64,000 nucleotides of DNA from Prostheceraeus crozeri (lineage: Eukaryota; Platyhelminthes; Polycladida; Euryleptidae). The notes under the pieces were generated by a model, which worked only from the letters and a program-made list of their open reading frames with translations, was not told the DNA's origin and searched no databases. The translations under genes and the position numbers were made by a program. This document shows, one piece after another, positions 4,256 to 62,281 of the stretch; positions within the stretch are counted from its first letter, which is position 1; each line of letters opens with the position of its first letter. The DNA is taken from contig CAJQUW010008924.1 in the NCBI GenBank assembly GCA_907163375.1, positions 372,001 to 436,000 on the forward strand, in the 5' to 3' direction.

Positions 4256-6902
4256 CAGTAGTGGTAAAGGTTCTGAAAATGTGTCCATGTCTCGTGCACC
4301 GAAAATTTTAATGATGAACGCTCATTCAATTGTTTCTTCTGGGAAAATGGACGATATTCGCATTCACTGTGCCACCTTGAAGCCAGATATTGTGATAATC
4401 ACTGAATCTTGGCTAAGTAATGTGCATGACAGTTGCCTTTTCAATATAGATGGTTACTCCATGTTTCGATGTGATAGAAAGAATCGTACAGGTGGTGGAG
4501 TAGCTGTGTGGGTTACGTCTGAACTCCAAGTTTCCATTTTTGAAAGTAATGCTAATCCATCATTTTGTGAATGTCTGTTTTTAAAAATAATAATTGATTC
4601 TGAAATCATAAATTTGTTGGCTATATATGTACCTCCTCGTATTGTTTCACATCATAAAGAGCTGAACGATTTTGTAATTGATGTCTTAGACAGTATGACT
4701 GAAAATTAATCTGTCCCAAACGTGATTATAGGAGGTGATTTGAACGATTTTGACTCATCCATTTTAAAGCGCAGTTTTGATCTTTTTAACAAGATCTGTG
4801 ATCCAACTCGTTTTGAGTCCACGTTAGATATTTTTCTCGTGAGTAGAACTTTGAGTGAAAATTACGGATCTGCTGAAGTTGGGCCCTCGCTATTCAGTAA
4901 TCGTAGAACCTCTCATTGCTCTGTTTTGTTAGTTCCATTTGTAACCAAGGCCGATACTCATGATTTCTGCGTTCGTAAACTTTTTGACTTGAGAAGTTCA
5001 AATGTGCAACATTTTTTATCTGCTCTGTGTGAAAGTTCCTTTCAATGTGTCTATGAAGCTGATGATGTTGATAATAAAGTTGAACGGTTTTACTCAGTTT
5101 TTCTTGATTGTCTGTTTAGCTGCATACCAATCAAAGAAGTTCTCATTTCAAAGAGAGACAAGCCGTGGATGACTCCAGTAGCAAAGGATTGTATTAATCG
5201 CAGATGGCAGGCGTACCGAAATCGTGATTTTCAGGAGTACAATAGACTTAAGCAAAAATGCAAAGAAATTATAAAGGCCTGTAAAGAAAATTGGATGAAA
5301 AGGTCCAAGCAAACATCGAGAGATATTTGGTCCATAGTAGCCCACTACAAGGGCAAGCAAGCAAATAATAACACTGTGGAATCACTAATTTCTCAATTTT
5401 CGTCTGTTGAATATGCTGTTGACGAAATCAATGATGTATTTGTGAACAAATTTTGTGTCTCTCAACCTATAGAATTTGATTTTGATGACAGTTGGTGTCC
5501 TCTATCTGACCCTGTTGAAGTTTTCGGCTATCTGGAGAAATTGTCCGTCAATAAGTCTTCAGGAGCTGATTGTATTCCCAACCGAATTCATAAGATTGGT
5601 GCCCCATTTATTGCTGAACCGCTGTGTCACATTATCAACTCGTCTGTTTTGCTGCGCTATGTTCCAGCATCTTTCAAATCTTGTGTTGTAGTTCCTGTGC
5701 CGAAGAAATCTAAAGTTTCTGTTGAAAATTTGAGGCCCATTACAATATCAAGTGTGCCATGCAAGCTTTTGGAGAGACATGTGTTGTCATGTATGTATTC
5801 TAAAATAACTAGCTGTATTCCTGACTTTCAATTTGCCTACAAGCCTCAATCCGATTGTAAATCAGCCTTGATTACGATTCATAATTATGTTACTGAGATG
5901 CTTGATTCTGACAATGTCACATCTGTCATGTTAATAGCTTTCGATTTTTCATGTGCTTTCGACAGGGTTCGTCATGACATTTTGGTTGCCAAGTTGCAGG
6001 CTCTTGGCTTTCCCTCAGGTTTCATTTGTTGGACTATCTCCTATCTTCAGGATAGGTACCAAAGTGTTCGTCTTCGTGAATGTTTTAGCAGTAGCCGGTG
6101 TGTGTCCAGTGGTTGTCCTCAAGGATCCCTTCTGGGACCATTTTTGTTTGTCCTATACTGTTCTGACATAGCTACCGCCAATGAAACGACAAAGATTGTA
6201 CAATATGCTGATGATGTAAATTTGATTGTACCTTTGACTAAAAATGATTATAATATAACAGATCGCGTTTTCGACGAATTTCTCTGTTTGGAGAAGTGGT
6301 GCTCTGAGAATGATCTTATGTTGAATAAGAGCAAGACCAAGATTGTTCATTTTAAAAAGAAAAATTATGCATGTAATGACGCTTTTCTTGACTTATCCAA
6401 TTTTATTGTTGATGAAGCAAAAGTGTTAGGTGTTGTATGGGACGATAATTTAAGCTGGTCCAGACATTTTCGTGAAGTGGAGTCGAAATGTTCTCAGCGT
6501 ATATATTTATTGAAATCACTCAAGTTTATTTTGTGTCATGATGATTTATGGACCGTATATTACAACGTTATAGAAAAGCTTATGTTGTATTCAGCTCCTT
6601 TGTTTGGTGTGCTTAGGAGTGATGTAAAGGTGATGATGAAACGTATATTCAGACGATGCAAGAGAACTATTTGTAGAAAAGATTGTGCATGCTCTAAAAA
6701 CTTTGAATCACTTTCTATCAAAAGACTACGATCCTTTGAGACATTGCATAAGAGTTCTGTGAGTCCAACGCATCCACTAAATGTGCTTATACCACCAACT
6801 AGCTTGAGACGCATTAATGTACCTTTCTGTAAAACTACTCGTAGACAGAATTGCTTTCCAATTTCGTATCTGCTATATTTGAATGGATACTTTCGGCTGT
6901 GA
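4200..6902 (+). pseudogene. LINE A ORF2: AP endonuclease plus reverse transcriptase, one in-frame stop
   Basis: ORF2 polyprotein. The EN domain shows MNAHSI, the E of TESWLS, FRCDRK-x5-GGGVAVW and GGDLNDFD. A single TAA at 4707-4709, in frame, cuts it within the EN domain just before GGDLNDF; reading continues in the same frame to 6902. The usual EN motif SDH is replaced by TSH (RRTSHCSVLL), so a catalytic aspartate is missing. The RT shows FDFSCAFDRVRHD, SSGCPQGSLLGPFLF and the catalytic QYADDVNLIV (about 6199-6219), intact. A C-terminal cysteine-rich CRKDCACS segment and HPLNVL motif follow, as in CR1/Jockey-group LINEs. The likely methionine start is near 4290 in the EN domain; the earlier frame overlaps ORF1. 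Confidence 0.85.
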
Positions 6903-7547: not shown

Positions 7548-7900
7548 TCATGCTTTAAAATATCGCAGCACGCTAATGAAAAGGAGGAGCGCCACCAACA
7601 TGTTTGATGTCGTTATTCGATCAGCGAAATTGCCAGTGTTGCAGAGATTCGCTGAGCAGCAAGTGATAGCAGTAGATGCGACGGCGCCGCTAACGGCGCT
7701 GGCAGTGTTTGCAGCAGTTTGCGCTACACCGCAAGACGTTGTATCGGTGTAGCAGAGTCTGGCATGAGTGCTGGTGCTTCCGGTAGTCACACGTGTGACA
7801 CCACACTGTTGGCAGTTGACGGATGTGGTTGTGGTGCCGGCAGTGACAGTGGAACACGCGGAGCACGCATAGCAAGTGAGGTTAGCAGCTGCTGCGATGC
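7548..7900 (-). CDS. Ly6/three-finger (LU domain) protein, last exon
   Basis: Coding exon of a small, probably secreted GPI-anchored LU-domain protein. Reading on the minus strand from 7900, the exon follows a good splice acceptor (pyrimidine-rich, TTTCAG at 7906-7901) and starts in phase 1, the same phase as the paralogue at 56808. It encodes NLTCYACSAC, then CQQCGV, CYTDTTSC, the hallmark TCCSANLCN, and a C-terminal hydrophobic stretch (MLVALLLFISVL) typical of a GPI-anchor signal. The cysteine spacing matches a ten-cysteine LU domain. The paralogue at 55652-57154 shares CYTDTTSC, AQTAAN and LCNT. LU proteins act at the cell surface, often modulating receptors; the partner cannot be inferred. 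The signal-peptide exon should lie at higher coordinates; I could not identify it with confidence. Confidence 0.75.
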
Positions 7901-9339
7901 CTGAAATGAAAAATATGCGGATGACATTTTTTTGTGACAGCCTTGAATTTCACATACTGTTATCAAAATTCATTTGAATTCCAATAAATTGATTTCAATT
8001 AATCGTTGCTCAGTATTTCTAATTTCAATTAATTCTTAGCATAAAATTGTAGCTATCAACTATTTGATGTCTGAATTGTCTGTGTCAATTACCCATTTAC
8101 CCAATGCTCAGAAATCACATTCGAAACACTTTCATGCATATTTATAATTCAAACACGGGTTTGAATTAATTTCCTTAGTATCAGAATCATGCGCATTATT
8201 TCTTCTATGGCGATGTCAGTGGTGTGTTTACAAATTGGTGTGATATTTATTGTAGGAATACTAATGTACTGTGTACAACTGGTAATGAAACAACCTTTAC
8301 AGTCATATTGAAATAACAAATGATTATGAATAATGTCAAATCAAAAATTTGGAAAGACGCAATTATTGAAACAGAACTAGTATACCGTTGTCAGGTGCCG
8401 GATTATCAACCATCCGTCTGGCAATCTGCTAGTCCAAGTTAATTTTCCACTAGGCTATACGGTGTATCCCTTTCCCATATTATAGGTCCATGATGCGGTA
8501 TATGAGGATCGCGGTTCCTTATTGCAGTTCATGGGTCCGTTTATGTGAAGAAAAAATGTTCCTTTGGCAATAAATGGATAGCACCGAATGCCACTTCTGT
8601 AAAAGCGTTATTCCTTGCCCGTTATTCCAGCTTGCTGGCATTTTTTGGGTAAGTGTCGTGCATAGCATGAAATTTAACTTCCATTCTAGAGATTTTGTCG
8701 TTATTAACTTCTGTGGCTTCAATGTTAATGCGCTAATAATCAACGAAAGCGCTCGCAGCATTAGAGATTCCTTCATGGTGTACAAACAGCAAACAGCAAT
8801 ATGAGTATAAAAACTTATCATGAACCTTTCAATAACATTCTCGATAATATATCAAATTTAAATTTAGAAATCTGAGGCAGTTCGAAAAAAAGAGTGGATC
8901 TGAGTGCTTCTACTTTTATCAGTGATATAACCCGTGATTGGTAACAGCGCGACAGATGACATAAGTAAATAGTTATACCATTCAACAAGGCTAAAAACTT
9001 CTATATTTTCAATATAAAGATCTCATAAATTAATAACAATATAAAATGACTATGGTGAAAAATGCAGACTTACTTATGAAGCACAGGAGAGTGGCTAGGT
9101 ATAGAAGATACTTCATGGCTCAAATGTCTTTCTATCCCACTGCTTAATTAAACTTAGTAACTAACTTTTATACGAACAGCCCCGGAGATAGTAACTATGG
9201 AGGTGTAATGACAACACGCCGTGTCAATTGGTGACATCCAATGTGGATGCCGTAATGCAAGACTGATTTTTTATAGCATTCACTATAAACAATAGCTCAC
9301 CACTTCATTTCCACTTTCGCTTTGATACGCATGCCGTCC
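7901..9339. other. intergenic or intron; one coding-like repeat fragment
   Basis: Probably includes the upstream intron of the Ly6-like gene. Within it, 8519-8821 (minus) encodes a short peptide with the string SRMEVKFHAMH that recurs as SRMEIKLHAMH at about 38245-38345 (plus). I do not know the parent protein, but conservation in the reading frame suggests a decayed element gene. Confidence 0.35.
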
Positions 9340-24301: not shown

Positions 24302-26916
24302 TCAAACCGCAGAACTGGTACAAACACTTTGGGTGGTACTATTTGCCAACATACAACACCAAGGAAAGAACGAATTTAGGCGTCTGTTCGTTGAACAATA
24401 TGACAGAGCATAGTGCCCGGAACAAGGCAACACTGACGGGAGATATTGATGCAAAGGATGCTCAAGACATCTACACTTGTCTAAGAAATTCAGCGCTAAC
24501 CTTTCCCGGATATCTGTCAAATTACCAGTTACAAAGCACTCACATAATGAATCGCAAATAATATGATGGGCTCTCTTTTGGATTCTTTCCAGTTTCTTTA
24601 TGATGGAGGCAGGCAACTGACAAAATAGGGGCGATGCATAAAGTATGATTGACATAATAGAAGATTTGTACACCTCAACCAACTTCCTTTTCTCAACAAA
24701 TTGCTTTAATGCTCGGAGTAAATACAAACGCCTTGATGCTGAAAGAATCACACGATTGAAATGTTTATTCCACTTGAGATCATCTGTCAGAGTCACACCG
24801 AGAATCGTAAGTGAGTTTGTCAATTCGATGTTATCATACGGTACAGCCGAATCATTTCTGACACGATGAATCAACATCTGCTGGCACTTTTTTTGGTTAA
24901 GTGGCATTTTGTTTTGACATGACCACACAAGAACAAGCTCCAAATTATTGGGACATGGATTGTCAATTGAGCAGGACTCAATAAGAGTAAGGTCATCCGC
25001 ATACTTGACCAACTTCGCAACTGGAGAGTCAATGTTCAGCGTTGCAATGAACAAAGCAAACAAGTATGGACCTAAGACAGAGCCCTGAGGAACGCCAGAT
25101 GGGATGTCAATAACAGGACCGATTTCCCTTGCAATACGCACACGTTCACAACGATTCCTCAAGTAGGAGCTCAACCATGCAATGAAGCCTAGATTGAAAT
25201 TCCAACGAAGCAGGTTGTTCAGCAAGCGATTGAATTGAAGCTTATCGAAAGCCTTTGAATAATCGAGGCATGTGATCTTAACAGTTAGATTGTTCGGGCA
25301 TTCCATGAAAAGGGTAATATAATTATGAATTTCAATTAGGGCACTCGTTGTTGAGCCATATGGACGGTAAGCGTGTTGACTGCTGCCAAAGAATTCCAAA
25401 AAAAGACCTTTCATCGAAGCTAATACAAGCCGTTCGAACACCTTTGCAATAATTGGCAGGAGAGAGATTTGTCTATAGTCATGAATGGTTGGACTCGACT
25501 TTTTCGGTATGGGTACAATAAATGCATTTTTCCAATATTCGGGGAAAACTCTAGTTGAAACGCTAGTTCTGTAGATTTCGAACAAAGGTTCGCAGATGAT
25601 ATCAGCACATTCCCACAATATTCTCGCATATATTCCATCATATCCGGTCGATTGCTTGAATTTCAATCTTTTCAGCGAATTATACACATCATATGAGTCA
25701 AAGTGAAGATCCCAAATTTCATCCGACAATCCACAAAGGTCTTCATCTTTCTCGTTGTTGAAACATGATGCAAACGTATCCGAAAGATCCGACAAAAAGC
25801 GAGACAGTTCAATGTTGCTGTCAGGAAAATAAGTGCTAGCCTTATTGCTGCCTTGAAATTCTTTAACCACATTCCAAACATTTTTTTCCTTCCTCATTAC
25901 CCTTTCACTCCATGTTTTTTTGGCCTTGAAAATCTCTGTCCGAATCTTTGTCTTTAAATGATTGAACACAGTCCAATTCTGCACACGATAGGCCCTCCAT
26001 CGATCATTGATCATTTTCTTCAGTATGGGTGTAAGCCATGGCTTATCCTTTTTTGTAAATATCACCTCATGATGAGGAATCACACTTAGAGCGTCAAAAA
26101 ATAACTCGTAGAAGGCATGACATTTATCGTCGACATCACTCGCAGCATAAACCTTATCGAATCGAAGCCTGAAGAAGCCAATCTTGATACGAAATGGTCG
26201 ATGTTGGAACGTCTCAAGTCAAAAACTGTCTTGGTTACAGTGTTGTCAATAATTGGCTGGGATGAAGGTGTCAATAGAACACAATTATGGTCCGAATTTG
26301 AAAGAGGAGGACCGACTTCAGCTGGGCTGGTGTAAATGTCCGATAATTCCTCTGATATCCAGATTTGATCCAGCAATGACGCACCGCGTGTTGGTAAGGT
26401 AACTTTATTGGAACACATGAAATTTACATGAAAAAGATCTCCGTCAAAGTCATTAAAGTCTCCGCAAAAAATAAACTTGGACTCAGGATACGAATCAAGA
26501 ATGGAATCATGAATTAGCACCAATTTATCAAAGATATCTCGATGAGAGGATGCTCTGAGATTAGGTGGGATATACATGCAACAAATAACTACTTTGATTC
26601 TTGAAATGCGAATAAAGAGGACCTCAATGCCTTCAATCAAATGATGTTGCAATTTCCTCGGATTGAAAGAATTATGAATATAAATACATACACCACCTCC
26701 AATACGCCCGTCTCGATCAGCTCGAAAAAGTTCATAGTTCCTAATTGATAAGTAGTTGTCAGATATTTCACTTGTCAACCAGGTTTCGGTAATACTGATA
26801 AAACCAGGAGAAAATCTATCGACCAAAACCCGCAACTCATCCAGCTTGTAGTAAATTGAGCGTGCATTAATGAGCAGCATGGATGGAAAGTTTAAGTTAG
26901 GTAAAATCGGTTTCAA
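24302..26916 (-). pseudogene. LINE B ORF2: AP endonuclease plus reverse transcriptase, one frameshift
   Basis: EN part 26916-26086: MLLINARSI, ITETWLT, FRADRDGRIGGGVCIYI, FCGDFNDFDG and NSDHNCVLL, so all catalytic positions (N, E, D/N, SDH) are present. The first ATG is at 26881 next to the EN core; the frame overlaps the end of ORF1. RT part 26083-24302: KKDKPWLTP, FIVPIPKK, TCLDYSKAFDKL, SGVPQGSVLGPYLFALF, KYADDLTLIES (near 25000) and C-terminal IICDSLCECF and HPLHQYLP. The two parts are in different frames, joined at about 26083-26086, so a single indel separates this copy from an intact protein. EN nicks target DNA and RT primes from the nick. Confidence 0.85.
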
Positions 26917-31355: not shown

Positions 31356-31735
31356 TATTTTTAATGGCGACAAATCCGTCATCTTTTTTCGCCAAGATAA
31401 TTTTCAGATATTTATATTCATCGATTTCAAGAAGTCGATGTGGCTAAAATATTTGGTGACAACTTCATTTTTCTAGTGATTCCTACATAAAATTTACTGC
31501 TTTATTCATTTTTCACATCAATTTTGATGTTGAACGTGTCATTTCTGAATAATATGTCTTTATAGATGAAACAGTGGAGAAATTGTGTCATTTGGCTCTC
31601 AGATATTGTTTATCTACATACTGAAGATGCATATAATACAAATATTTCCTGGAATGAGAAGAAAGGAATATTTGCTCGCTATTTTAGCAGCATTTTTGTG
31701 CTTTGGATGGTTCTTTAACGTTTCATCCGCCAGTG

Positions 31736-32138
31736 CACGGTGGGTTTTAAGGGGTCAAAATCGACGTATCGACTCCATTCAAAATACCTTCATGAATGGG
31801 TAGCCTAGGGTCCTTGAAGTTGTAAAAACTGCATTTCAAAAAAATCGGTCGGTAGCTTTTTTTGTGGGACCATTTTTTCAAAATGGCGGCCAATTTTTCA
31901 GATTTTTGCCCTTTGTTCGAAGTATGACTATTTTTGATCCAACTTTATGCACAAGCTCTATTACAAATCCAGTATAAATTGATCAAGGAATATCAGTGTG
32001 ACATATTATAGGTATGCTGTTGTGTCATTGGCACATAACGATGTCAAATTTTCAAAATGGCGGTCATTTTTTTGCTTTTTTGCATTTTTGAAGTTCAGAT
32101 TATTTATACAAACCTACGAGTTTGCTCATATCATGTTC
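31736..32138 (+). repeat. left terminal inverted repeat of the RAG1-related transposon
   Basis: Pairs with 34978-35381 over its full length with only a handful of differences by eye (for example TTTTAAGGGG against TTTTGAAGGG). It contains two ATGGCGGCC/ATGGCGGTC motifs inside AAAATGGCGG strings that are YY1-like, and starts CACGGTGG. Confidence 0.9.
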
Positions 32139-32475
32139 TTTCATTCAAGTAATGCACACATGTCATAGTCAGATGTTTTTGTGATTTAGTCACACATGGT
32201 TGTAATATGTATATATGAGTATATGTATTTCATTAGTGTTATTGGCCTAAGTTCGCACAATGATCGAATCTTGTTTGAACAATGTAATGAATGCATTTTC
32301 TATACTCTTCGTAATTTGTATATACGTGCATGTAGTTCTACGAATAAATTGACCGTGACTCGGCATTCTGTACATAAGTAGGAAAATTGCAGGCATAGCT
32401 AATCAAAAACAGATGTATTGGTGTACAAGAAATACGTATGCATAAATAGCGGTATATAGGCCTAACAGCTTAAAT

Positions 32476-34721
32476 TTACAAATGCAAAGAGTTGTACTCG
32501 GAAACTGCGTGAAGGAGCCGTTCAGGATATCTTGAATTGATCAAATTGACCTTGTATTTTAACCAAGTGACTTTAATGTCTGAGTGCGCAGCTTCTGATG
32601 CCTGCTCCGACCATATACCAAGAGCACCATTGGTACGGTCGCAGAATTCTGGCACATGGTAGAACACCATGTGCATCTTCGGTGTGACAGGAAGTTCTGA
32701 ATCTTTGTATGCTCTCCTGAAATCATCAATAAAACGGCGGAAATCAGGATGCAATGCTGCTCCAAAGCAAGATTTCACAATCAATTTGAAGAGTGAGAAT
32801 AACTCAACGAATCGTAGACATTGTAGTGGGCACAAAGATCTCAACAAGTCAATATTATTCAAAAGAGTCATACAAGAGTTGTCATTGAATGCTCCTCCAT
32901 GCATGGCTTCTTTTTCTACATAGCATTTACTTGGCCAAATGATGGCCTGTGGCCAGACTTTAATCAGATGATTGTACAACGTATTTACAACATCAATGAG
33001 GAGATGTAGCTCCGGTGGTACCAGAATGTCGATAATTCCAACATTTTCATCCTCATGTTTGACAAGGGGAGAATGAATAACATTTCCAAATTGTTTTGCA
33101 TTTGATTTATCCTTACTGCTGGAAAACCACGTCCAGAACTTTTCTTTCAAGTTGCCAATGGTCCTAAAACATGAAGAGTATTGTTTAGGCTCAATCTAGC
33201 AAAAATGTTTACATAGAGTTTTTATTCCCTTGTCATAGATCCTACGTGTTAATAAGTTAAGCACTACGACTAGACTTTTAACAGTTCATGAACTTCAATA
33301 TCATAGGTCTAAGACTTTAGAATTAGGACCTATACATGTGCAACAGTGCTCGCAGCTTTTAGCTTTGATACTCGTATTATAAAAATGTAAGTAGCACTTC
33401 AAACAAAGAATATTATGAATGTACTGTATAAAGGGCCTATCCACATAAGATACGAAAAATTTGCAAACGTATTTCCTCAAAGATGATTCCACGTCAGACT
33501 CGCGACAACATTTTAGCTCACCTGAGTTTTCCTTCTTTATCCAACTTTGACTTATCGATATCACAATAACTGCAAGGATGGGTTGATCCGTGGGCCATCA
33601 AAACAAGAATAATGTTGGCAAGCTTTAAATCTGAAACAATTTTCCACCGGTCTCCAAGATCTTTTAATTTCAATGTCACGAACATTTGGAGTACGTTTCT
33701 ATAATTCTCATCCACTTCGGGAGTAATCAAAATCAAGAAAATTTTCTTTACGCTGGTATTAGTATCTTTTCGATGTCTTGTCTTTGGTTGTACATTCTCG
33801 TCATCGATGGCAAAAACGCTGATCATGACTTTAACAAAGCCTCCGCCTCCATCAAGAGACAATTTGATAAAAACATTGTCGTGGTCAATACCTCTCGTTG
33901 TGCATATCACATGGATAAGTCTTTGAATATCTTTGCAATACACTACAGGTCTCTCGTACTGTTCCCCAGAATTATCAAAAAAGTCGCACGTTTTCAATTC
34001 AAATTGTTCATCGAGAAAATGACTAATATTGTACAACTTGTCTTTCAAAAATGGTTCAATTGATACTTGATTCTGCGTTGCTTTACGAATTTCTTGACCT
34101 AGCTTCAGTGTTTTGTTACGAGAAAGATTCAACTCACTTTGAATATGAGCAAGACTTTTTGAAGAAATCTCAAAGCTTGCGGTTGGTAACTGGCTTGTAG
34201 CACCCACACATTCATCATCCGATGATGTTTGGGACTGAATATCACTTAAGTTCTGTTTAAATGTATCTTTGGTACACTGATGACTCTTTCCTCTTCCGAA
34301 TTCAGATAGACATTTTGCACACAGATTCTTAGAAGTTCCAGATTCTGATGGCTGTTCATCTTTTTTTCCATGGAAACACGTTGCCTTGTTTCAAATTTGG
34401 ATTTGAGGTTGACTTTGCAATTTTACAAATATAGCAGTCACAATCAGAATCTCGAGTTCGTGATGGGCGTCCAATCAATGAATAATCTGGTAATTCAATA
34501 GTGTGATCATATATGTTTCGAGAATAATCCGATAGAATAAGACGACACTTGCCACAAACTGCTGTTGGATATCGAATATCATCGGGATCAAAGTGCATTA
34601 AATTTGAATGAATAGTCCTGATCTGATTTTCTGTAAGAACTCGCATTTCCTTCGATTTTCGGAGACATAGTAAACAAACTTTTTCTCTACACGCATTGTG
34701 GTTCATTCGCTCATATGGCAT
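32476..34721 (-). CDS. RAG1-related transposase, two exons, one homopolymer frameshift
   Basis: Exon 1 runs 34721-33522. It opens with VCLLC, then YPTAVCGKCRLIL, then CDCYIC, the C-x2-C / P-T-x-x-C-x2-C / C-x2-C layout of the RAG1 N-terminal zinc region. An A7 run (34364-34370) shifts the frame after NVFPWK; the next frame gives LCAKCLSEFGRGKSHQC (another zinc finger). The core follows: FIKLSLDGGGGF, LILITPEVDENY, VSDLKLANIIL, STHPCSYCD. Donor CTCAG-GTGAGC at 33522/33521, acceptor TTTTAG at 33169-33164. Exon 2 (33163-32476) continues in phase, TIGNLKEKFW, PPELHLLIDVVNTLY, TPKMHMVFYHVPEF and WSEQASEAAHSD. Likely catalytic acids are the D of SLDGG, a later D and the E of SEQASE. About 630 residues. 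Apart from the A-run it reads intact. Confidence 0.75.
33164..33521 (-). other. intron in the RAG1-related transposase gene
   Basis: 358 bases, GT..AG with donor GTGAGC and acceptor TTTTAG; exon ends join in phase so that GKLR runs directly into TIGNL, as expected for the family (LRT-x-G-x-L). The intron contains stops in every frame. Confidence 0.75.
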
Positions 34722-34977
34722 ACTTGTCTGAATGTGATGAAAACAACTTCTGATGTGTTCAATATGCTGACTCGCATCATGCTATTGCTTGGCTGACGTC
34801 ATAATGCCAAGATCATCACTGAATGGCCATGATATGCGTTGCATTGAATTGAAACGAGCATCGATCGTTGATGTCTAGATGGGACATAGATATTCGTCCG
34901 ACCTCAAAATAGCTGCTTTTGTCTCTCTCGGAATAGCGACAACGACAACATAGCTTCTGATTATGACATGTGACGAG

Positions 34978-35381
34978 AGAACATGATATGAGCAAACTCG
35001 TAGGTTTGTATAAATAATCTGAACTTCAAAAATGCAAAAAAGCAAAAAAATGACCGCCATTTTGAAAATTTGACATCGTTTTGTGCCAATGACACAACAG
35101 CATACCTATAATATGTCACACTGATATTCCTTGATCAATTTATACTGGATTTGTAATAGAGCTTGTGCATAAAGATGGGTCAAAAATAGTCATACTTCGA
35201 ACAAAGGGCAAAAATCTGAAAAATTGGCCGCCATTTTGAAAAAATGGTCCCACAAAAAAAGCTACCGACCGATTTTTTTGGAATGCAGTTTTTACAACTT
35301 CAGGGACCCTAGGCTACCCATTCATGAAGGTATTTTGAATGGAGTCGATACGTCGATTTTGACCCTTCAAAACCCACCGTG
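34978..35381 (-). repeat. right terminal inverted repeat of the RAG1-related transposon
   Basis: Reverse complement of the left TIR; the outer end reads CCCACCGTG and is followed by AGTG. The coding start at 34721 lies about 255 bases inside it, so the TIR or this gap holds the promoter. Confidence 0.9.
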
Positions 35382-36352
35382 AGTGAAGATCAATTAATTA
35401 CTATGCCAAATCGAATCTAGCATTTTAACCGGAGAAATGGATCTTCATCTCATGTTTTTGTCTTCCAGATGTCTACGGATACTGTGTAATTTTTTACTAC
35501 TTCATAGTTTTGACATAGCTATTCAGTCCCTTCCATTCAATATTTCAATGCTATTCTGTTGTCAATTGCGATATCAAATAAAACTGCTTATAAGAGCTGG
35601 CGAAAAAGTAATATCATAGCTGTCGCCACAAATCAACCGTTGATCCATACTTCCCTTATATACTTACTTTGATCTAAACAGTGTGGCGTCTACGTATTAT
35701 ACCTTGTTACTCATTGGTTGTACTTTCATATCCTTGCTGATTTCTGTAACTAAACTTTTGTAACTAAACGTCCTTATGTACTATGATTCAATATAATCTT
35801 TCGTCCTACACTTGACACAGATATCAGCAAGAATGACAGAAATACATCATGCGTGATATGTATTGTAAAACGCGAAGATAAGTATTTTCAGATACTCTAT
35901 TTGTGCATCAGCATATAGTTGATACTTCGCAAAGTTTTAATTTGCATTTAACATTAATCTTAGTAACATTCATACAAAGCACGCTGAACATTTACCAAAT
36001 GTCCTATAGCTTATCTATGCAGCCAATGTATTTTCCAAGCGCTACATTCGTCATGTCATTCACTTCAATATGAAGATTTCTAAGTTTTGAAGATATCGAA
36101 AACATATGACATTACTTTTTGTACCTCACTTTTCGTACATTACTTTTTGTATCACATCAGCATGTATTTAATAAGGAATATTTACAATTTAGCTATTACT
36201 GATTTTCATCCTTTACCAAATTAAATAGAACTAATGAAGACCCTTCCCTGAGACTATATCAAAGCAATATTCATGCAGTAGCTCTACAATATCATTATAT
36301 TCAAATGATGAAATACAACATTATATAACTCTGAAAGGGAAGCGAAAAGAAA
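35382..36352. other. AT-rich spacer, nothing recognised
   Basis: Begins with the AGTG target duplication of the transposon. No gene or repeat partner identified in the remaining 960 bases. Confidence 0.4.
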
Positions 36353-37591
36353 TTATAAGTCCAGTTCAATTTGTCCCCATGATGCAGTTATCTTCATCTT
36401 CTTAGTTCCTGGCTCCCTGTCTCTTCGTAAATCGGTATCGTCACTTTGTATATCGTCCAGTAAGTTGCTTTGCAAACTTGTGCTGAACGAAACCGATTTG
36501 GAGATATCCTTTATTCGAAAACATTTCTCGGCAATCTGCATTCCCATCTCCACTTTTCTTTTGCTCTCACCACAATCATATGCAGTTAATGATTGCGGCG
36601 ATTTGTGTTTTGTCACACTCATCACCTCGCGATCAGAAAATCCTTTTTCTTTAAGTGTGCAGACGGTGGTGGCCCTGCCACAATGGTTGGTGTATAATTT
36701 CGACAATTCAAGCTCTTTGCTAATGTTTTTCATCATATTTTCCAGGGTGCATTTCCCAAACGGTACACCATCATACCAAATGGGCATTCCACTATTGACA
36801 TTTTTCTTCGGTCTTTGCCAAAATGCTTCACATCGGTGACTTCTTTTTGATATGTACACTTTCAGAGAATCAAAAGGGCACATAGATGAGTTTAGGACCA
36901 TCGGAATGACTCCTCCATCAAAATTGGATTGGTTAGCGTCTTCTCGATGGTTCTTGTCAAATTTTGGTATTAACCGAAACCATCTCGCACCAGTGGCATC
37001 GCTTTCCTCTTTAAAAGAGTTGGCGGTCATTTCTCGAAGCTCTTCACGTCCTCGTACTCCAAAATACACAATTATGTTTATGAAAACCTTTCTCTGCAAT
37101 CCCTTTGCTTCTGTTACATCTAACTTTTCATAGCATTTGACAAGATCCTCTGGCTGAATTTTGGGTTTGTGAACGGTATTCCCGAGTCCCTTCTGTTTGA
37201 TGTCTTTAAGTTTCGCGCGATACATATCCCAGCCTTGTTTATAGATGGTCTTGTTCGAAATGTCTACGTCATACGTTTCTTTCAAATAATGCCGAATCCC
37301 ATTCTTGAGTGATAGAAAGGAATTCTTTTTGTAATCCTCTCCATTCTCTTTTATAACTGCAGAAAAAAAACTAGACAATGTGTCATCTAATAATTTGTGG
37401 TCGTTAACTATTTTGTCAATATCCAACTTTTTGTGTTCTAAATAGTCACTGAAAATTTTCATTGTTGATTTGGTATTTCTGTCAGTATTCGGACATCTTA
37501 AATTATTCAACAGTCTCGCAGATTCAAGGTTCTCATCTCTAAAGCGACTGCAATTTGCCATCATCAACCAGTATGCTAAATCAGAATTCAA
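36353..37591 (-). CDS. Crypton-like tyrosine recombinase
   Basis: 412 codons, ATG at 37591, uninterrupted. N-terminal half: helical core-binding-type region (FSDYLEHKKLD, FLSLKNGIRHYLKE, YDVDISN). C-terminal catalytic part: YFGVRGREELREM with the first Arg, PMVLNSSMCPFDSLKVYIS, YTNHCGRATTV supplying His-x2-Arg, SVTKHKSPQSLTAYDCGE with a second His and the Tyr nucleophile in TAYD. This is the domain found in Crypton DNA transposons and in domesticated proteins such as the ZMYM/QRICH group (KCTD1-type DUF3504). No RT-RNase H lies next to it, which argues against DIRS. An intact frame suggests a recent element or a domesticated gene. Confidence 0.75.
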   Translation of the reverse strand: MNSDLAYWLMMANCSRFRDENLESARLLNNLRCPNTDRNTKSTMKIFSDYLEHKKLDIDKIVNDHKLLDDTLSSFFSAVIKENGEDYKKNSFLSLKNGIRHYLKETYDVDISNKTIYKQGWDMYRAKLKDIKQKGLGNTVHKPKIQPEDLVKCYEKLDVTEAKGLQRKVFINIIVYFGVRGREELREMTANSFKEESDATGARWFRLIPKFDKNHREDANQSNFDGGVIPMVLNSSMCPFDSLKVYISKRSHRCEAFWQRPKKNVNSGMPIWYDGVPFGKCTLENMMKNISKELELSKLYTNHCGRATTVCTLKEKGFSDREVMSVTKHKSPQSLTAYDCGESKRKVEMGMQIAEKCFRIKDISKSVSFSTSLQSNLLDDIQSDDTDLRRDREPGTKKMKITASWGQIELDL

Positions 37592-37798
37592 ATTGTGATC
37601 AACTCATTGATATTCCTGATTCAATCTAAATTTTGAATTCATGTGTAATCATTTTTCCATGGGAGGGATGCCTAGAAATCATTTCAACACACAGACGATA
37701 TGAGTCTCAACAAAGCTGTTTTTCTTGTTGATCCATGGACATCTACTAGTAGATTTCCATGGATGATTGCATATTTGTCCAAGTTATAGGACATACCA

Positions 37799-40890: not shown

Positions 40891-43800
40891 CCTCTTCACG
40901 CGCGCATTTTTAATCTTTGATGAAAAAATCTTTCTTTCGGTTTTGGTTACCTATGAGGATATATAAGAACATCTGAATAGGTCGAATTAAGAATAAATAA
41001 GTTTATGTCATATTTTCAGACTGTCGACATATGTCGACAGTGAGCGTTAGGACTACTTTTACTGAAAATTTGTTGTTAATCAAATTTTTTGTTATTGGCT
41101 CTCTTTCATTGAATATCGATGGGTACCATCATATTCTATCACTGTTTACAGTATCCGTTACTGATATATTAATTAAATGTTCATTCTATTTTAGTATTAT
41201 CAAAATATGGAACAGATTCTTTTGAATAGTCTATCATCTTCAGCACCAATAGGGCCTACAACAATGAAATAAATTATCTGGGTTCAAGTGAATTTTGTTC
41301 AAATTTGACCAATAAAAAAACTGAATTAGACTTTGATTATGTAAAACAGCTAGACTTGAATGAACTTTAAATTCATAGTAAGTACATGTAATCTATAATC
41401 CTGCAATTTCTTCGGATAACTTTTTTCGAATAGGACTTATAAAAACCACGTACTTGTTATCATTACAAAATATGTATTAAATATGAAATTGTACAATCAT
41501 ACTTCAAAATATATTGAAATGGAATTTAACTGTTATACATGAAAGTCAGTGAAGCAATTTCGTTCACTGGTCAAACACAAGAATACGTTGCACTTTGTGC
41601 ATTTCACTCGACCACTCTTGTTACAAAAGCTCTCGTTTACAACGTTGAGCAGATTTCATTTGACAGACTTCTGGCCAATGTTCAATGCCATCGTAACGAA
41701 CATCTTTAGCTGGCAAAACGGCTGGAGTGGTCTTTTTGTTTGGAACTTTCACATAGTTCAAAAGAGATTGAAAAGCCGGTCGACCCCGAAGTCGTGTTGG
41801 TTCGCAATTTGCCTTGCATAAAGCATCAGCGATTTCTTGTCGGAATGCCAACAAGTCAAGGACATTTCTCTTTCTGACACCTCTTTCAATTTCTCTCCTT
41901 CTATATTCCAACCAGCAATTCACAATGCTCAAAGAAAGAAGATGTAATATAACCCTCGTTGGCCATCGCTTAGTTCGCATGGTCAATTGGTAGTATGAAA
42001 TCAATCGGTCCATAAGGTCTACACCTCCCATATAGTCATTGTAATACTTGACTGCTTCTGGACGTTCAATTTCGATGAATTTCTTTTCTGACTTACTCCA
42101 GCGTCGAACTAAATCGACCTCGCCAATTACAACGAAGGTCGATGCAAGATTCACAATATTATTATCTTGCCATCTTACAATTGTCACTTCATCTGATTTC
42201 GAGACCCGACTATCCATGGTTCCCCTTCCTCCACGCCTCATCTCACTTCTTGTACTCATCACAACTCCAGACATTCGATTGGATTTCAAAACCCCGAGAC
42301 AGTAAAACCTTATATTTTTTAATTCAAGTAATAGAGGCACACTCGTGAAATAATTATCAAAAAATACCTTGAAATTTTCGTTCTCAGGGAGATTTTCAAC
42401 TAATCGCATGACTATTGACCCTCCTAATCCCAAGTACTTGTAATCTTCAAACACACCTGTACCTTTTCCTTCATAGAATTCGAAGTCATACGCAATTCCG
42501 GACTTCCCACAGCGAACAAAGCTCTTAATTCCGACTGGATTCGGTTTACCCTTGACATACTGTCTACCAGGTATCCGTCCCTTGAACGGAATCATTTGCT
42601 CATCGATGCTGTTAAATTCCTCTGGAGGAAATGACCTACACGCAGTGCGAACTGCATCGGCAACAGGTTGAATCTTCCAATAGATACTCGTTCTGTCCTC
42701 AGGAGCCTCTTCAGCACTAGATGCTGCTAGATTTGCAAAGAGATGAAGAAACCGTTTTTGAGTCATCGCGTCGGCGATTGAAGGTACGCGGAACTGCTTT
42801 TCCCAATACATTCTCAACCTAGGGAATTTCAAATGCCCATGTGAATACAAATACCAAAAAAGCGTCTTACTTCTGAAGCAGTCGCTTTCAACTCAGTGCC
42901 AGTTTTCTTCATATATCGATTATTTGTTTCGTTGGCTAATAACTCGAAAATATCAGGAGTGAAATACTTTTCAAGAAGCTTTATGGGACTATTTTCCTCA
43001 CCTGCACTTATACCTGATGTAAATGACGCATCATGCAACCATGTGCAATGCAGTCCGGCTTGGGGAAATCCTTTTTGCGCCAAGTATTTCTCGATCGCTT
43101 ACTTTTACATGACTCACTTGAAGAACTAGGGATCAGATCTACCTGACCGACTTCGTGGTCTTCGTCACTGACACCGGTTTCATGGTTGGGAGGGAGATAA
43201 TTATCGTCTATAACACAGTCAAGTTCATCAAAGTCATCTTCATCTAGCTCTATATCAGAACCGTTCGTTATGGCTGCAATCATCTCATCGACCTTCTAGA
43301 GCCTCTTCTTGAGTCGAGTTCGAAGACTGCGAGATTCATGGGCAACATTGAGAACCACTGACTGCGGCAGATGAAGTTGTTAAATCGTTGAAATTTGGAT
43401 CCAATTGAGCGTTTTCATTGTTTTCTTGAGAATCTCTATCTGTGATACCAATCAGGACATCTTGAGGAGTGAGTTTGCGTTTCCTACCTGAAAGAAGACA
43501 AACATACATAACTAAATCTACATACTATAACAATTTGATTATTATAGACCTGTATTCGGAAACGTGAAATAATTATCAGCACTCATCTCATGCAAAATAC
43601 AAGTGCAGTATGTATTGTCGATCTACATGTACAAGACAATGGCCAAATCTTATGTGGAAATAGTTGCACAAAAACTTACTTACACTAACGATAGGCTATT
43701 TACCTACGCGTGCAGTAGCTCATCTAATGGAGCATGGGTTATTATTGAAGACAACGTTTATATATGATCACGCTCTTATATGATAACATTACTCAAATCA

Positions 43801-50348: not shown

Positions 50349-52915
50349 CTAGAAAATTCCGCTGTTATGTGTGCGAATCATGCAAATAAGGAACGATCTT
50401 GATCTCATTGCTGAATTGCAATGAGGCATACGGAAAGTTTTTGAGTTCTTGTTAACATCAGGACTGATATGATTCAACGGATGATGAGTCTCATTCTCTA
50501 GCGATAGGAATAATTTGGAAGCTAAAGATAGTCTTCGAAAGTCCAAGCGTACAAAATTTTCACAAGTGCATTTGGATGTACCGCACATCAAACGATGCGC
50601 TCTGGAATGAACTTTCTCTAGAATGTCAGAAAGTGAAAGACCAATCCAGACGAAAAGTGGAGCCGAGTATTCGAGGATGCTGCGTATATAAGCATTGTAA
50701 GCAGTGGTCAAGTCACCTTCAGAAAGGAAGGGTTTTAATCTTCTCAACGCAGAAATTCTTGAGGAGGCTTTCTTGGAAATAGTTCGGATATGGTTGGACC
50801 AATTCAGGGTTTCGTCAAACTGGACTCCTAAGAATTTGAAATCAGATGACATAGAAATTTGTGGAAGACGAAGATTTTCAGAGTTATATTTGCCTGATAA
50901 TGATATAAACATTTGCCTGCATTTTTCTTCTTTAATAAACATGCTGTTGTCAGTAGTCCAAGAAATAACTTCCGAGAAAGTGATATTAGCAAAGCTGGCA
51001 GTGATATTTTTTCTGATTTTACTAACGAGGAGAATATCATCAGCGTATTTAGTCAGGATTGTATCACAATTGTCGATCGTTAAGTCAGAGGTGAAGAACC
51101 CAAAGGCTAGAGGGCCAATTGACGAACCCTGTGGAATGCCACTGGGGACATTAACGGTATGGCTGCAGCGATTATTCCACCGTATGCGCTGTGTTCTCTG
51201 AGACAAATAATTAGACAAGAAAGCCACCAAAAAGTTATCAAATCCAGATTTTTGCATCTTCTCGATCAAGAGTTTGTATGAAAGTTCATCAAGGCCTTTT
51301 ATGAGGTCAATCGACAGTACATGGCAAGCGGCAACATCTTTCTCTTGCAAACTGGATGATATGAAGTTCTCAACATTGATTAGAGCACATGTCGTAGAGC
51401 TCATCTTGCGGAAACCATATTGACATGAATCATACTTGTCAGAAAAGCAATGTCCAACACGTTTCGATAAGAGTCTCTCGAAAATACGCTCGGGAATCGG
51501 TAATAAGGAGATGGGCCGAACATTTTTGATAGTTGGGGGCTTTGTTTTAGGAAATGGTAAGACATCTGCACTTTTCCATTGTAGGGGTAGATCAGCAGCT
51601 TTGAGGCATTTGTTGTATAAAACCGCTAAGGGCTACGTGTGGACTGAAGCAAGTTTTGACCATACCATCGAAGGGATAGAATCAGAGCCATCAGATGATT
51701 TTGGATTGACATTCTCAAAGTGAGCTTTGACTTTTTTTCAGTAAATTGGAGCGGTATAATAATAGGAAGAGGACGATATTCAATAGGATCGTTTATCAAT
51801 TCAGAAAAGATTTGATGATTAACATCCTCTAAAATGTCGCTGATATTTCTGTCAGGGTCCAACCAATCACCACTCTCACTGGTATGATTCGTGACAACCT
51901 TGTGCAAATCCCAAATAGTATTTGCTCGCAAATAAGTCCTGCTCCAACTTTGTTTCGCAGCATATATCATTTTTTGACTTTATCCCTGTAATGGTAAAAC
52001 AAGGACCAGTTTTTGTCCCGATAGGCTTTGTATCTCTTATTTATCATGGGTTTGATTACATTAGTAATCCAGGGCTTGTCACTGGTTTTCCTTTTAACAA
52101 CATCTGTTGGAAGGAGTTCGACGGCGTTCTTCAAGAATACATTGAATGCTTTACATGCATTGTCAAGGTCCAAATTCTCGAGGATGTTAGTCCAATATAT
52201 AGATGAAAGATACACGCGAGCCTGAATTAAGAATGATTCTCGATAGTCAATCACTTTTATGAAGGATGAGGGAAAACAGAATTTACGCGTTGGTTTTATC
52301 AGAATGACATTGTGGTCGCTCATACCAAAAGGTGGAAAGTACATAGGTTTTGAATATAGATCAGCATATTGATCAGGAATAAGAACTAGGTCCAAAATAG
52401 CATTCATTCTTGTTGGATTGAACACGATATTTTCAATTCCAAAAGCAATCTCAAAAGGGGAGGAATCCACATGACTGAAATCACCAGCAAGATAGATCGC
52501 TGAGCCTGGATAGCGTTCTAGATAATCATCCGTTGTAGAGATCACATAGTCACATAAATGTCTCTGTCGTTCAATATTCAAAGTTCCGCCATGAGGGAAG
52601 CACAGTAAAGGCGGTAAGCAATGAAAAGCTTTGTAGGAAATTCGAGTGATTAGAAGTTCAACATCGCTGTAGATAGATTCACAGAAAACCATGCTGCTAG
52701 AGAAAGATGAGCGAGTCCAGCAGACGATACCGCCACCCTTCATACCAGAAGTACGATCGGCACGATACAAAATATACTGTGGTAGATCTACAGATTCATC
52801 ACAAGTTAGACTGTCACACCACGATTCCGTAGCACAAATAACATCTGGTGAATATTTTGAGGAAAATGCCATGATTTCATCAGTCTTGTTTGTGATCGAG
52901 CGAGCGTTAAAATAG
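50349..52915 (-). pseudogene. LINE C ORF2: endonuclease and reverse transcriptase, frameshifted
   Basis: EN from about 52915: FNARSITNKT, CATESWC, YRADRTSGMKGGGIVCW, YLAGDFSHVD and FGMSDHNVILI; the usual N of GDFN-D is replaced (GDFSHVD). Frame changes at about 51970 and between about 51630 and 51400 separate EN, linker and RT. RT part 51404-50349: LSIDLIKGLDELSY (motif A, with the catalytic Asp), SGIPQGSSIGPLAFGFF, TKYADDILLVSK (near 51045), LGVQFDETLNWSNH, C-terminal CGTSKCTC and HPLNHI. Inactive through frameshifts. The second half of the RT is well kept. Confidence 0.8.
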
Positions 52916-55651: not shown

Positions 55652-57154
55652 ATGAAGTTTGTTTTCAGCATTCTGATTATCCTTGGCGCTATCAGTAAGT
55701 ACTTTCGCTTGTCTAATAGTTACCGTAGTAGATAGCAATATCACTCCTCTTTATGATGTACGAGGTTATTACTGTTGCGATCTTGAACTCATTGCTACTC
55801 ATGGACTGCGCATATGAATACGTACATTCGAGTCATGCTCATTCAATAATCCAAGAAAACAACCGAATTATCGAGGCAAAGAGCATCGACACCTCGACGT
55901 ATTAAGATTCCTCTATTTTTTGGCAGCATGTAAGGACTAGTTCTGTCGAACCAATAATGAAGTTTGTTCAAGTTTGGCCATTTTTGGGAAATTGTATAGT
56001 TAAATAATTGACTCTTCTCAAGAATAAGACGAGTTCTGATGTCCGATATTTCGTATTTCTTTGTCAAAGGACCAAATAACAATGAAATGTTAATGCAGAT
56101 TACATGAGAGAACACGAAGAACACTATTCGATATGATATGTCGAATGATATACGATATATGATATGATTAATGATATGTCCAGACATTCAATGCACAAAT
56201 CATAGATATACAATAATTAGGTAAGTAAGCAGGACAAAGTGAAAATCTTAAGTAAAAGAAAGGCAAGAAAATTGAAAGAGTCAAGTATTAATTGCAATTT
56301 CTTTCTAATGTTTTTGTGAATTAAAAAACGCGCAGACCAAGTATTTCGTGAGACCTTTCAATTGGCTCGATTAAGATTAATGCACTTTCTAGCTCGCCTA
56401 AAACACCACAATACTTTTAAATGCACTACTATGAATAAACCTTGATGAGATCCACCTCTTTCGAATCAACGGCCTACCGGCAAACAAAAAATTCCTGTTT
56501 GGTTGAGAAAACAAAAAATCGAATTTTAGAGTAAAAACAGACTGCTATTTTATGCTTTCAAATATGTCTCTTTGCCAACCCGTTGTAGTCGGCTCAGAGT
56601 CGGCCCGATGATGTTTTCTTAGATAGAAGTATTGTAAAACGTTGCCGTCTTTAACTTTGCATTACTACTCTTACTAATTGCATATAGCTTGCGTGTAGAA
56701 GTGCCACTGGATGTTGCTATTAACAATATTTATATGAAAGTAACAGTTTATTTACAAAATGCTTCTCTTTGACTTCGTCACTGAAATTTTAATTTTTCTT
56801 ATTTAAGGTGTCGCCACAGCAACCAATCTTACTTGCTACGCGTGTAGTTCATGTACCACTATCAGCTCAAGTACCGGAACTTCAACTGGATGCAGTGAGT
56901 GCGGAGTGACACGGTCGACTGTTCTCTCAGTGTCAACACACACGAGGACGTGCTACACAGACACAACATCTTGTACAGCAGCACAAACCGCTGCAAATGC
57001 AGCTAATAGCATAACAAGCAGCCTCGGCACGACAACTGCAGTTAGTTGTTGCTCATCGGCAAGTCTATGCAACACTGACAATCCTGCTGGACGCATCGCA
57101 ATTTCAACTATGCTCATAGGCATTTTGTTATGTGTGTGCTTCTACTTGCGATGA
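55652..57154 (+). CDS. Ly6/three-finger (LU domain) GPI-anchored protein, two exons
   Basis: Exon 1 (55652-55694) encodes a signal peptide, MKFVFSILIILGAI, and ends at donor A-GTAAGTA. Exon 2 (56808-57154) follows acceptor TTTAAG and joins in phase 1: SVATATNLTCYACSSC. The mature region has ten cysteines in LU order: C-x2-C-x2-C, C-x2-C, CYTDTTSC, then the terminal SCCSSASLCN. A hydrophobic tail (MLIGILLCVCFYL) after a small-residue site suggests a GPI anchor. About 129 residues. The paralogue is at 7548-7900 on the other strand, 48 kb away. LU proteins act outside the cell at membranes; ligand unknown. The intron (1,113 bases, 55695-56807) holds a few short frames but no recognised element. 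Confidence 0.85.
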
Positions 57155-60090: not shown

Positions 60091-62281
60091 CCGTAAAACG
60101 GGGTAACTTTGAACGCTTTTTTCAGTTGAATACACGATTAAAATTTTTTTATCATTCGGATCCCTAAGTTTTCTACCCATGAACTGCAGAATTGGTATTT
60201 TACACAATCTAGACAGTTTATAGAGCTTAACTATTGCTAGTATGAAAAATCGATAAGGTTACTTAGTAGATAACACTTTTTCCAAAAACGGGGTAACTTT
60301 GAACAGACACATTTTTTCATATACAATGCTATATTTGGATCATAACAAGTTCTTTTAATTAACTATTCCGTAACTAAACAACAAAAACAATATACTAAGT
60401 AAAGAATAACACTTAGCAGTTGCAAGTTGATGAATTTGACTATTCACAGAAGTCACATTTGTAGAATGGATCCGTCGTCCCATCGTTGCAGAATCCACAA
60501 TACCATTGCAGACAGTCGACGCACCGCACCCAATCAGGTCCGGAATAGGCGGCGAAGGATCTGAAGCAGTTGCTGCAGTTATCGTCTGATCCCGATGACG
60601 AGGCTGCTCCGGCAGTTGAGGTACTCGGCTCTGACGAGCTGGTTCCTGGAGCTGTTCCTGTTGTGAGAGATTCTTCAGAAATCGGGCGCCCGGGCACTAC
60701 TTTTCTTCCTCTTGACGTCTTCACTTTGTCCGCTATTCCTCGATGGTCACGAAGCATCTGAATAAGCGCTCCATCAAGAGAACGCCCGATCTCACTTTTA
60801 TTGGAGGATGCATCTGGAAGGTGTTTCAAGGGTTCAGAAGGATTGAATGGAGACAGACCCGTTGCTCTGAATCCAGATTTGAGGTTGATGTCTATGGTCT
60901 TCTTTACTTCCTGATACAGTAACTGGAATGATGAAGTTGATGAACCAACTGTTGAGCATTACCGGGAAGTTCACCTTTGGAAGTGCACCCTTTGATCGAT
61001 GCTCTTTCCTGAAGTTGTCCAAGATGGTTGCCCATATTCTTTTAAACGGTCTAAAGACGGATACATCCAGTGGTTGCATTATATGAGTCGTGTTCGGAGG
61101 GAGAGCCACAAAGAGAATGTCGTTTTCTCGTGCCATTCGAACGACGCTAACGGAAAAATGCGATGCCAGATTGTCACCAATAACAATCTTCCGCCCCGGC
61201 TTGGATCGAACCTCTTCCAGGAAGACGTCCGGGAACCATTTCTCGAATATGTCAATATCGAACCATCCGGATTTCGAGACACTGTATTGAGCTCCAGAAG
61301 GACCGCCAACAGTCCAACCTTCGTAAAGGTTGGTAGCTTTGTAAACCACACGTGGAGGCAGCAACTCTCCTTCAGCTGAGCCGCATACCATGATGGAGAT
61401 ATTCACCTTGCTGTGTTCTTTCACAACCTCGACTCTTCTAGCACCACGAGGAACTACCACATTGCAGGCACCAGGATCGTCGGATAACGCGTTTTCATCG
61501 AAATTATCGATGTTTGTAGATGGAATCTGATCAGCTCCTGCTGCTTCCATCTCACGGAAGAAAGATTCAATGTGTTGAGCACTAACAGAAGACCGGGCTC
61601 TTGATGTTCCCAGGTTTTCTGTACACCATTTTGTTTCTCTTCATGAATGACACAACGAAGTCTTCGCCGGGTAAATTGTCTTTGAATCGAGACTCGACGC
61701 GTCCTTATTGGTCTAGGTATCCTTTTATGAGGAGGGCCACAGTCTTGCGACAGAAGCCGTAGGCCCATTCTGTAACTTGTTTTATAGTGTCGCGGATAAC
61801 TGTTTCTTCTTCATCTGATAGCACTGGTGGTCTTCCTGGTTTTCGTACGACGGTTGGATTCAGGTTATAGTGTAGGGTGCTCAGGTTGATATTGAATTGA
61901 TTGGCTGCACATCGCAAAGACATTCGCGATTTCACAGCGTCAACAGCAGGTAAAAGATCATCTTCAGTGAAGTTTCCGTATGTCCGTTTGTTATTTCCAC
62001 GTGTGTAGAACCTCGGCATCGTCGCTACTGTAGGATTTCAGTCATAGAATGAATATAAAGCCAGTGTCGACTGCACTAAGTTCTGACACACGTGCGCGCT
62101 TGAAAATCGATATCGTCTTTCTTGCATTCCAAGTAGAATCGTCGAATAAGCTATTGTTCACACGCTACAAGCATCTGTCATTGATTGACACAGTTAGAAG
62201 ACACTGCCGAATGCCAATGAAGAAAACAGATAGCAAAAACAGCATTTAGTGCTAAGTGTTCAAAGTTACCCCGTTTTACGG
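60091..62281 (-). mobile_element. pogo/Tigger-type DNA transposon
   Basis: TIRs begin CCGTAAAACGGGGTAACTTT (left) with the complement at 62255-62281, flanked by TA (60089-60090, 62282-62283), 2,191 bases. A second copy of the TIR core, ACGGGGTAACTTTGAACA, lies at about 60288-60305. The empty site is seen in R1 copy a (AAATCCTCAATG, about 9386-9397). The transposase is on the minus strand and broken. Confidence 0.85.
60440..62019 (-). pseudogene. pogo-type transposase with C-terminal cysteine domain, frameshifted
   Basis: ATG at 62019: MPRFYTRGNNKRTYGNFTED, then RMSLRCAANQFNINLSTLHY, a psq/CENP-B-type helix-turn-helix for TIR binding. Shifts at about 61720, 61610 and 60940 break the frame. 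The DDE core is visible: STNIDNFDEN (D1), RKIVIGDNLASH (D2), PPNTTHIMQPLDVSVFRPFK (D3 region), all acids present. After the third shift GLSPFNPSEPLKHLPDASSN follows and the last frame (60829-60440) ends in CSNC-x12-WVRCVDCLQWYCGFC, a PHD-like cysteine cluster found in many pogo-family proteins. Dead through at least three indels. Confidence 0.8.

Follow-up and report, generated by a model that had tools for sequence, protein, structure and literature searches.

The polyclad flatworm Prostheceraeus crozeri carries, in a 64,000-nucleotide stretch of contig CAJQUW010008924.1 (assembly GCA_907163375.1, forward-strand positions 372,001 to 436,000; hereafter the window), a 3,646-bp element at positions 31736-35381. 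Two questions are raised by this locus: how closely its transposase stands to RAG1, the enzyme responsible for cutting antibody genes, and whether the copy is still active. An initial annotation had described it as an almost intact, RAG1-related DNA transposon of the Chapaev kind. Our analysis indicates that the element is very probably a single decaying cut-and-paste DNA transposon of the Chapaev superfamily in a transposon-rich genome, encoding a DDE transposase whose core is predicted to be RAG1-like and whose N-terminus may be ZAD-like.

Ends and gene of the element

Both ends of the element can be read directly, the left tip being CACGGTG and the right tip CACCGTG. Repeat detection identified arms at 31736-32142 and 34975-35381 (407 nt each, 98% complementary), and direct alignment of the terminal inverted repeats (TIRs) was free of gaps over 404 bp, with 7 mismatches (98.3% alike) and similarity lost beyond. 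A 30-base terminal pattern, allowed up to 3 mismatches, matched only the two element ends in the 64 kb (mean expected, 0.00); no second copy of the element was found within the window, and the TIR pattern gave 0 matches in viral contigs. AGTG is common to both junctions, the left flank ending in CCGCCAGTG and the right flank starting with AGTGAAG. At this one site, a duplication of 4 bp alone matches, and the alternatives of 3 bp (GTG/AGT) and 5 bp (CAGTG/AGTGA) fail.

The transposase gene occupies the minus strand in two exons, from the first ATG at 34721-34719 to a TAA at 32478-32476 (Table 1). A GT-AG splice would remove the 358-bp intron, and the resulting junction, KLR-TIGN, corresponds to a stretch that is uninterrupted in related proteins. 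One open reading frame (ORF) runs across the intron position in 70/70 aligned relatives, whose rows were picked as full-length. Among the 120 matches listed, only that of relative P0004 stops exactly at the splice donor, which would be expected if P0004 shares the intron. Within the A7 run at 34361-34367 the reading frame is interrupted; the remainder of both exons is without stops. No RAG2-like second gene was present among ORFs of at least 60 amino acids. Thus, alignment and ORFs bore out the view that the ends, the 404-bp TIRs, the AGTG duplication, and a two-exon gene are all readable in this copy.

Table 1. Coordinates of the element's features within the window
Feature	Position	Strand	Basis
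Target duplication, left copy, 4 bp, AGTG	31732..31735	.	flank comparison
Left TIR, 404 bp, starts CACGGTG	31736..32139	+	repeat detection and direct alignment
CAAAATGGCGG, first repeat in left TIR	31879..31889	+	
CAAAATGGCGG, second repeat in left TIR	32053..32063	+	
Transposase exon 2, ends with TAA	32476..33163	-	
Candidate catalytic E, E587 or E591	32593..32607	-	
H(4)H motif, H565 and H570	32656..32673	-	
LH motif, L453-H454	33004..33009	-	
Intron, 358 bp, GT...AG	33164..33521	-	predicted from sequence and relatives
Transposase exon 1, first ATG at 34721, frame breaks in A7 run	33522..34721	-	
C(2)C motif, C384 and C387	33563..33574	-	
Second catalytic D, D365 of window protein (P0005 D430)	33629..33631	-	
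First catalytic D, D291 of window protein (P0005 D338)	33851..33853	-	
ZAD-like zinc domain at the N-terminus, residues 10-72 of window protein	34506..34694	-	
Right TIR, 404 bp, 7 differences from left TIR	34978..35381	-	repeat detection and direct alignment
CAAAATGGCGG, repeat in right TIR	35054..35064	-	
CAAAATGGCGG, second repeat in right TIR	35228..35238	-	
Target duplication, right copy, 4 bp, AGTG	35382..35385	.	flank comparison

Each TIR contains two copies of CAAAATGGCGG spaced 174 bp apart; these 4 copies are the only ones in the 64 kb, where approximately 0.02 would be expected. The word resembles the YY1 motif, and its copies may serve as binding sites, either of the transposase or of a YY1-like protein of the host. 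In addition, each end (31736-31763 and 35354-35381) consists of CACGGTG, 12 bp, and TCAAAATCG, an arrangement loosely like a recombination signal sequence (RSS) of the 12-bp type. The tip agrees at 6/7 bases with the RSS heptamer, and the nonamer-like word 12 bp past this heptamer-like tip scores 6/9 at both ends. An equally good word accompanies 1.9% of the 1,542 CAC triplets in the window at 12 bp, or 2.6% at 12 or 23 bp. Since both ends are one repeat, this amounts to one post hoc observation, and the RSS likeness is treated as a lead only.

Relationship to Chapaev, Transib, and RAG1

Of 6,779 candidates compared with the read-through protein, 174 qualified as relatives (E ≤ 1e-3); 120 of these were itemised, and an alignment was built from 70 full-length sequences. 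The suggestion that such elements are rare is difficult to reconcile with this number of relatives. P0004 was the best match (75% identity over 60% of the query), and the matches listed include proteins from the fly Pseudolycoriella hygida, the beetle Brassicogethes aeneus, and the flatworm Macrostomum lignano. Pattern searches for relatives gave 9 matches in viral contigs and 54 in genome contigs, with 0 confirmed in either. Matches of P0002 to TAL-effector chains in the PDB (E down to 2e-15) were set aside as repeat-protein artefacts because all begin at residue 153 and no stretch passes alone, and a Radical_SAM match in P0002 scored under its cut-off.

Membership in the Chapaev family is indicated by motifs that can be read directly. 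In P0005 numbering, the relatives conserve D338, D430, C449-x2-C452, L517-H518, H629-x4-H634, and E651/E655, and the alignment shows that the catalytic and metal-binding positions are all retained in the window copy. As judged from aligned residues, this set fits the Chapaev signature given in PMC4079192, namely a DDE triad with C(2)C, LH, and H(4)H motifs. The same paper describes Chapaev target duplications of 3-4 bp and TIR tips of CAC...GTG, so that the likeness extends to the tips, the 4-bp duplication, and the animal hosts; the particulars of this element are its 404-bp TIRs with internal repeats. C(2)C and H(3-4)H are common to a wider group comprising EnSpm, Mirage, Transib, and RAG1, according to PMC12730594. 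Chapaev3 has the same superfamily motifs, and that of silkworm is likewise predicted to have two exons. However, Chapaev3 duplicates the 3-bp TWA between A and T (both points from PMC4079192), whereas AGTG is duplicated here, and membership in Chapaev3 was rejected on this basis.

Profile evidence points in the same direction through one relative. According to PMC3985635, DUF1280 (PF06918) corresponds to Chapaev transposases and falls in one clade with RAG1; its cut-off is passed by P0249, a protein that aligns to pieces of the window protein at 33% and 31%. Two results count against the assignment: DUF1280 matched only 16/70 relatives at E ≤ 1 (best, 3.1e-4), and it matched none of the 3 window protein pieces. 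Placement within the RAG1/Transib/Chapaev group is supported by three strands, namely the motifs, the DUF1280-positive P0249, and the predicted fold of a relative; no hidden Markov model match of the window protein itself to RAG1 or Transib was seen. By these, the core appears to fall inside that group rather than outside it, and the earlier proposal of a Chapaev-kind DNA transposon stands.

The third strand is the predicted model of P0005, which adopts a RAG1-like core fold. Its best fold matches are RAG1 (418 aligned residues), BbRAGL of ProtoRAG (419), and HzTransib (375), at identities of 12-15%. These matches, together with tips that differ at 1/7 bases from the RSS heptamer, could suggest that the element belongs to the RAG1/Transib lineage proper (Transib, TransibSU, or ProtoRAG type) and not to Chapaev. 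We consider this very unlikely. The likeness to the RAG1 core, BbRAGL, and HzTransib lies in the predicted core fold and the DDE and zinc motifs; their duplication, in contrast, is 5 bp (for Transib, according to PMC8355894) and that of this element is 4 bp, and lineage membership was rejected on the 5-bp comparison, in which CAGTG is not matched by AGTGA. Furthermore, the relatives carry the Chapaev set of C(2)C, LH, and H(4)H, one of them passes DUF1280, and no sequence match to PDB chains of RAG1 or Transib was returned by the profile of 70 relatives.

State of the copy

Although the Chapaev assignment held, the description of the copy as almost intact, with one single-base lesion, did not. 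Across the 70 full-length relatives, 83 alignment columns are at least 90% conserved; at these positions, the window copy keeps 76 and has 7 substitutions, the frameshift apart. Among the relatives, leave-one-out counting gave a median of 2 such substitutions, with 7 or more in 3/70. At a conservation level of 97%, the window copy loses 3 positions, all glycines, and 67/70 relatives lose no more than 2. Both comparisons must be read knowing that the relatives lean towards intact proteins because they were chosen as full-length ORFs. Taken together, the aligned positions suggest that this copy is drifting and that functional enzyme is probably no longer produced from it; a related transposase encoded at another genomic locus could still mobilise its ends.

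Alternatively, the element may be recently active and still autonomous, with the frameshift a homopolymer error of sequencing or assembly and the substitutions tolerated variation. The frame break does sit in an A7 run, both exons are otherwise open, and the splice sites and the catalytic and metal-binding positions are retained, yet the 7/83 substituted positions and 3 lost glycines set the copy apart from nearly all relatives, even if these are biased to intact sequences, and we judge this alternative improbable. The 98.3% likeness of the TIRs might also be taken in its favour, as in the earlier inference of very recent mobility. However, a cut-and-paste element may insert with TIRs that already differ from each other, and TIR similarity alone therefore cannot date the insertion. 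Domestication of a Chapaev transposase as a host gene would explain why there are two exons and a frame that is long and largely open. The gene is nevertheless still flanked by complete TIRs and a target duplication, its frame carries a break, and it has lost conserved positions; domestication was rejected on these grounds and is extremely unlikely. A decaying Chapaev transposon is thus the preferred explanation.

When this transposon was mobile, its transposase would have bound the long terminal repeats, and a dimer would have paired the two ends, cleaved at the CAC/GTG tips by nick and hairpin, and transferred the strands into the target with a 4-bp stagger, yielding the AGTG duplication; dimer, chemistry, and strand transfer are modelled here on RAG1 and Transib.

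Other mobile elements abound in the window. A reverse transcriptase ORF of the long interspersed nuclear element (LINE) type at 4710-6899 has a 96% identical relative, and two further LINE-type ORFs (24305-26218 and 50352-51632) match RVT_1. Minus-strand ORFs match DDE_Tnp_1_7 (41624-42892), DDE_1 (60837-61640), and DUF3504 (36356-37603), which denote piggyBac-like, pogo-like, and Crypton-like elements, respectively. Two similar cysteine-rich ORFs (7551-7949, minus strand; 56807-57151, plus strand) share the pattern LTCYACS...CCS...LCNT and look Ly6-like by eye; neither had a Pfam match at E ≤ 0.001.

The N-terminal zinc domain and its implications

A Cys/His-rich N-terminus is conserved among the relatives. 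In the window protein, the zf-AD profile scored E 0.0019 and 18.8 bits against a cut-off of 28; the cut-off was passed by relative P0079 (33.1 bits), and 19/70 relatives matched at E ≤ 1. The domain may resemble the ZAD of insect transcription factors, a proposal that is new here and weaker than the main finding. The likeness to insect ZAD zinc-finger proteins would lie in the cysteine pattern and predicted fold, with middling scores, and the difference is that the domain here belongs to a transposase without C2H2 fingers behind it. No paper pairing ZAD with Chapaev or with RAG1 appeared among the matches listed from the open-access papers searched; one listed there contains ZAD together with transposase, and the Chapa domain is named in one.

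The N-terminal zinc region of Chapaev (the Chapa domain) has been reported as common to the RAG1 N-terminus, and N-RAG-TP of Aplysia is described in PMC8355894 as a transposable element resembling that N-terminus. It is possible, if rather doubtful, that a ZAD lies within this zinc region in Chapaev-type transposases. In that case, a transposase may have been the common source of part of the RAG1 N-terminus and of the ZAD in the large insect ZAD zinc-finger family, and a ZAD-like module for dimerisation may be present in RAG1.

In sum, this element is distantly related to the RAG system and, though well preserved, broadly ordinary; it is represented by a single decayed copy, and it offers a complete, readable Chapaev element with a large protein family behind it. 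The predicted model sets its transposase beside RAG1 and Transib by fold, where the 70-relative profile found no such PDB chain, a placement relevant to the assembly history of the RAG1 core and N-terminus. Confirmation of the ZAD link would connect that history with insect transcription factors.
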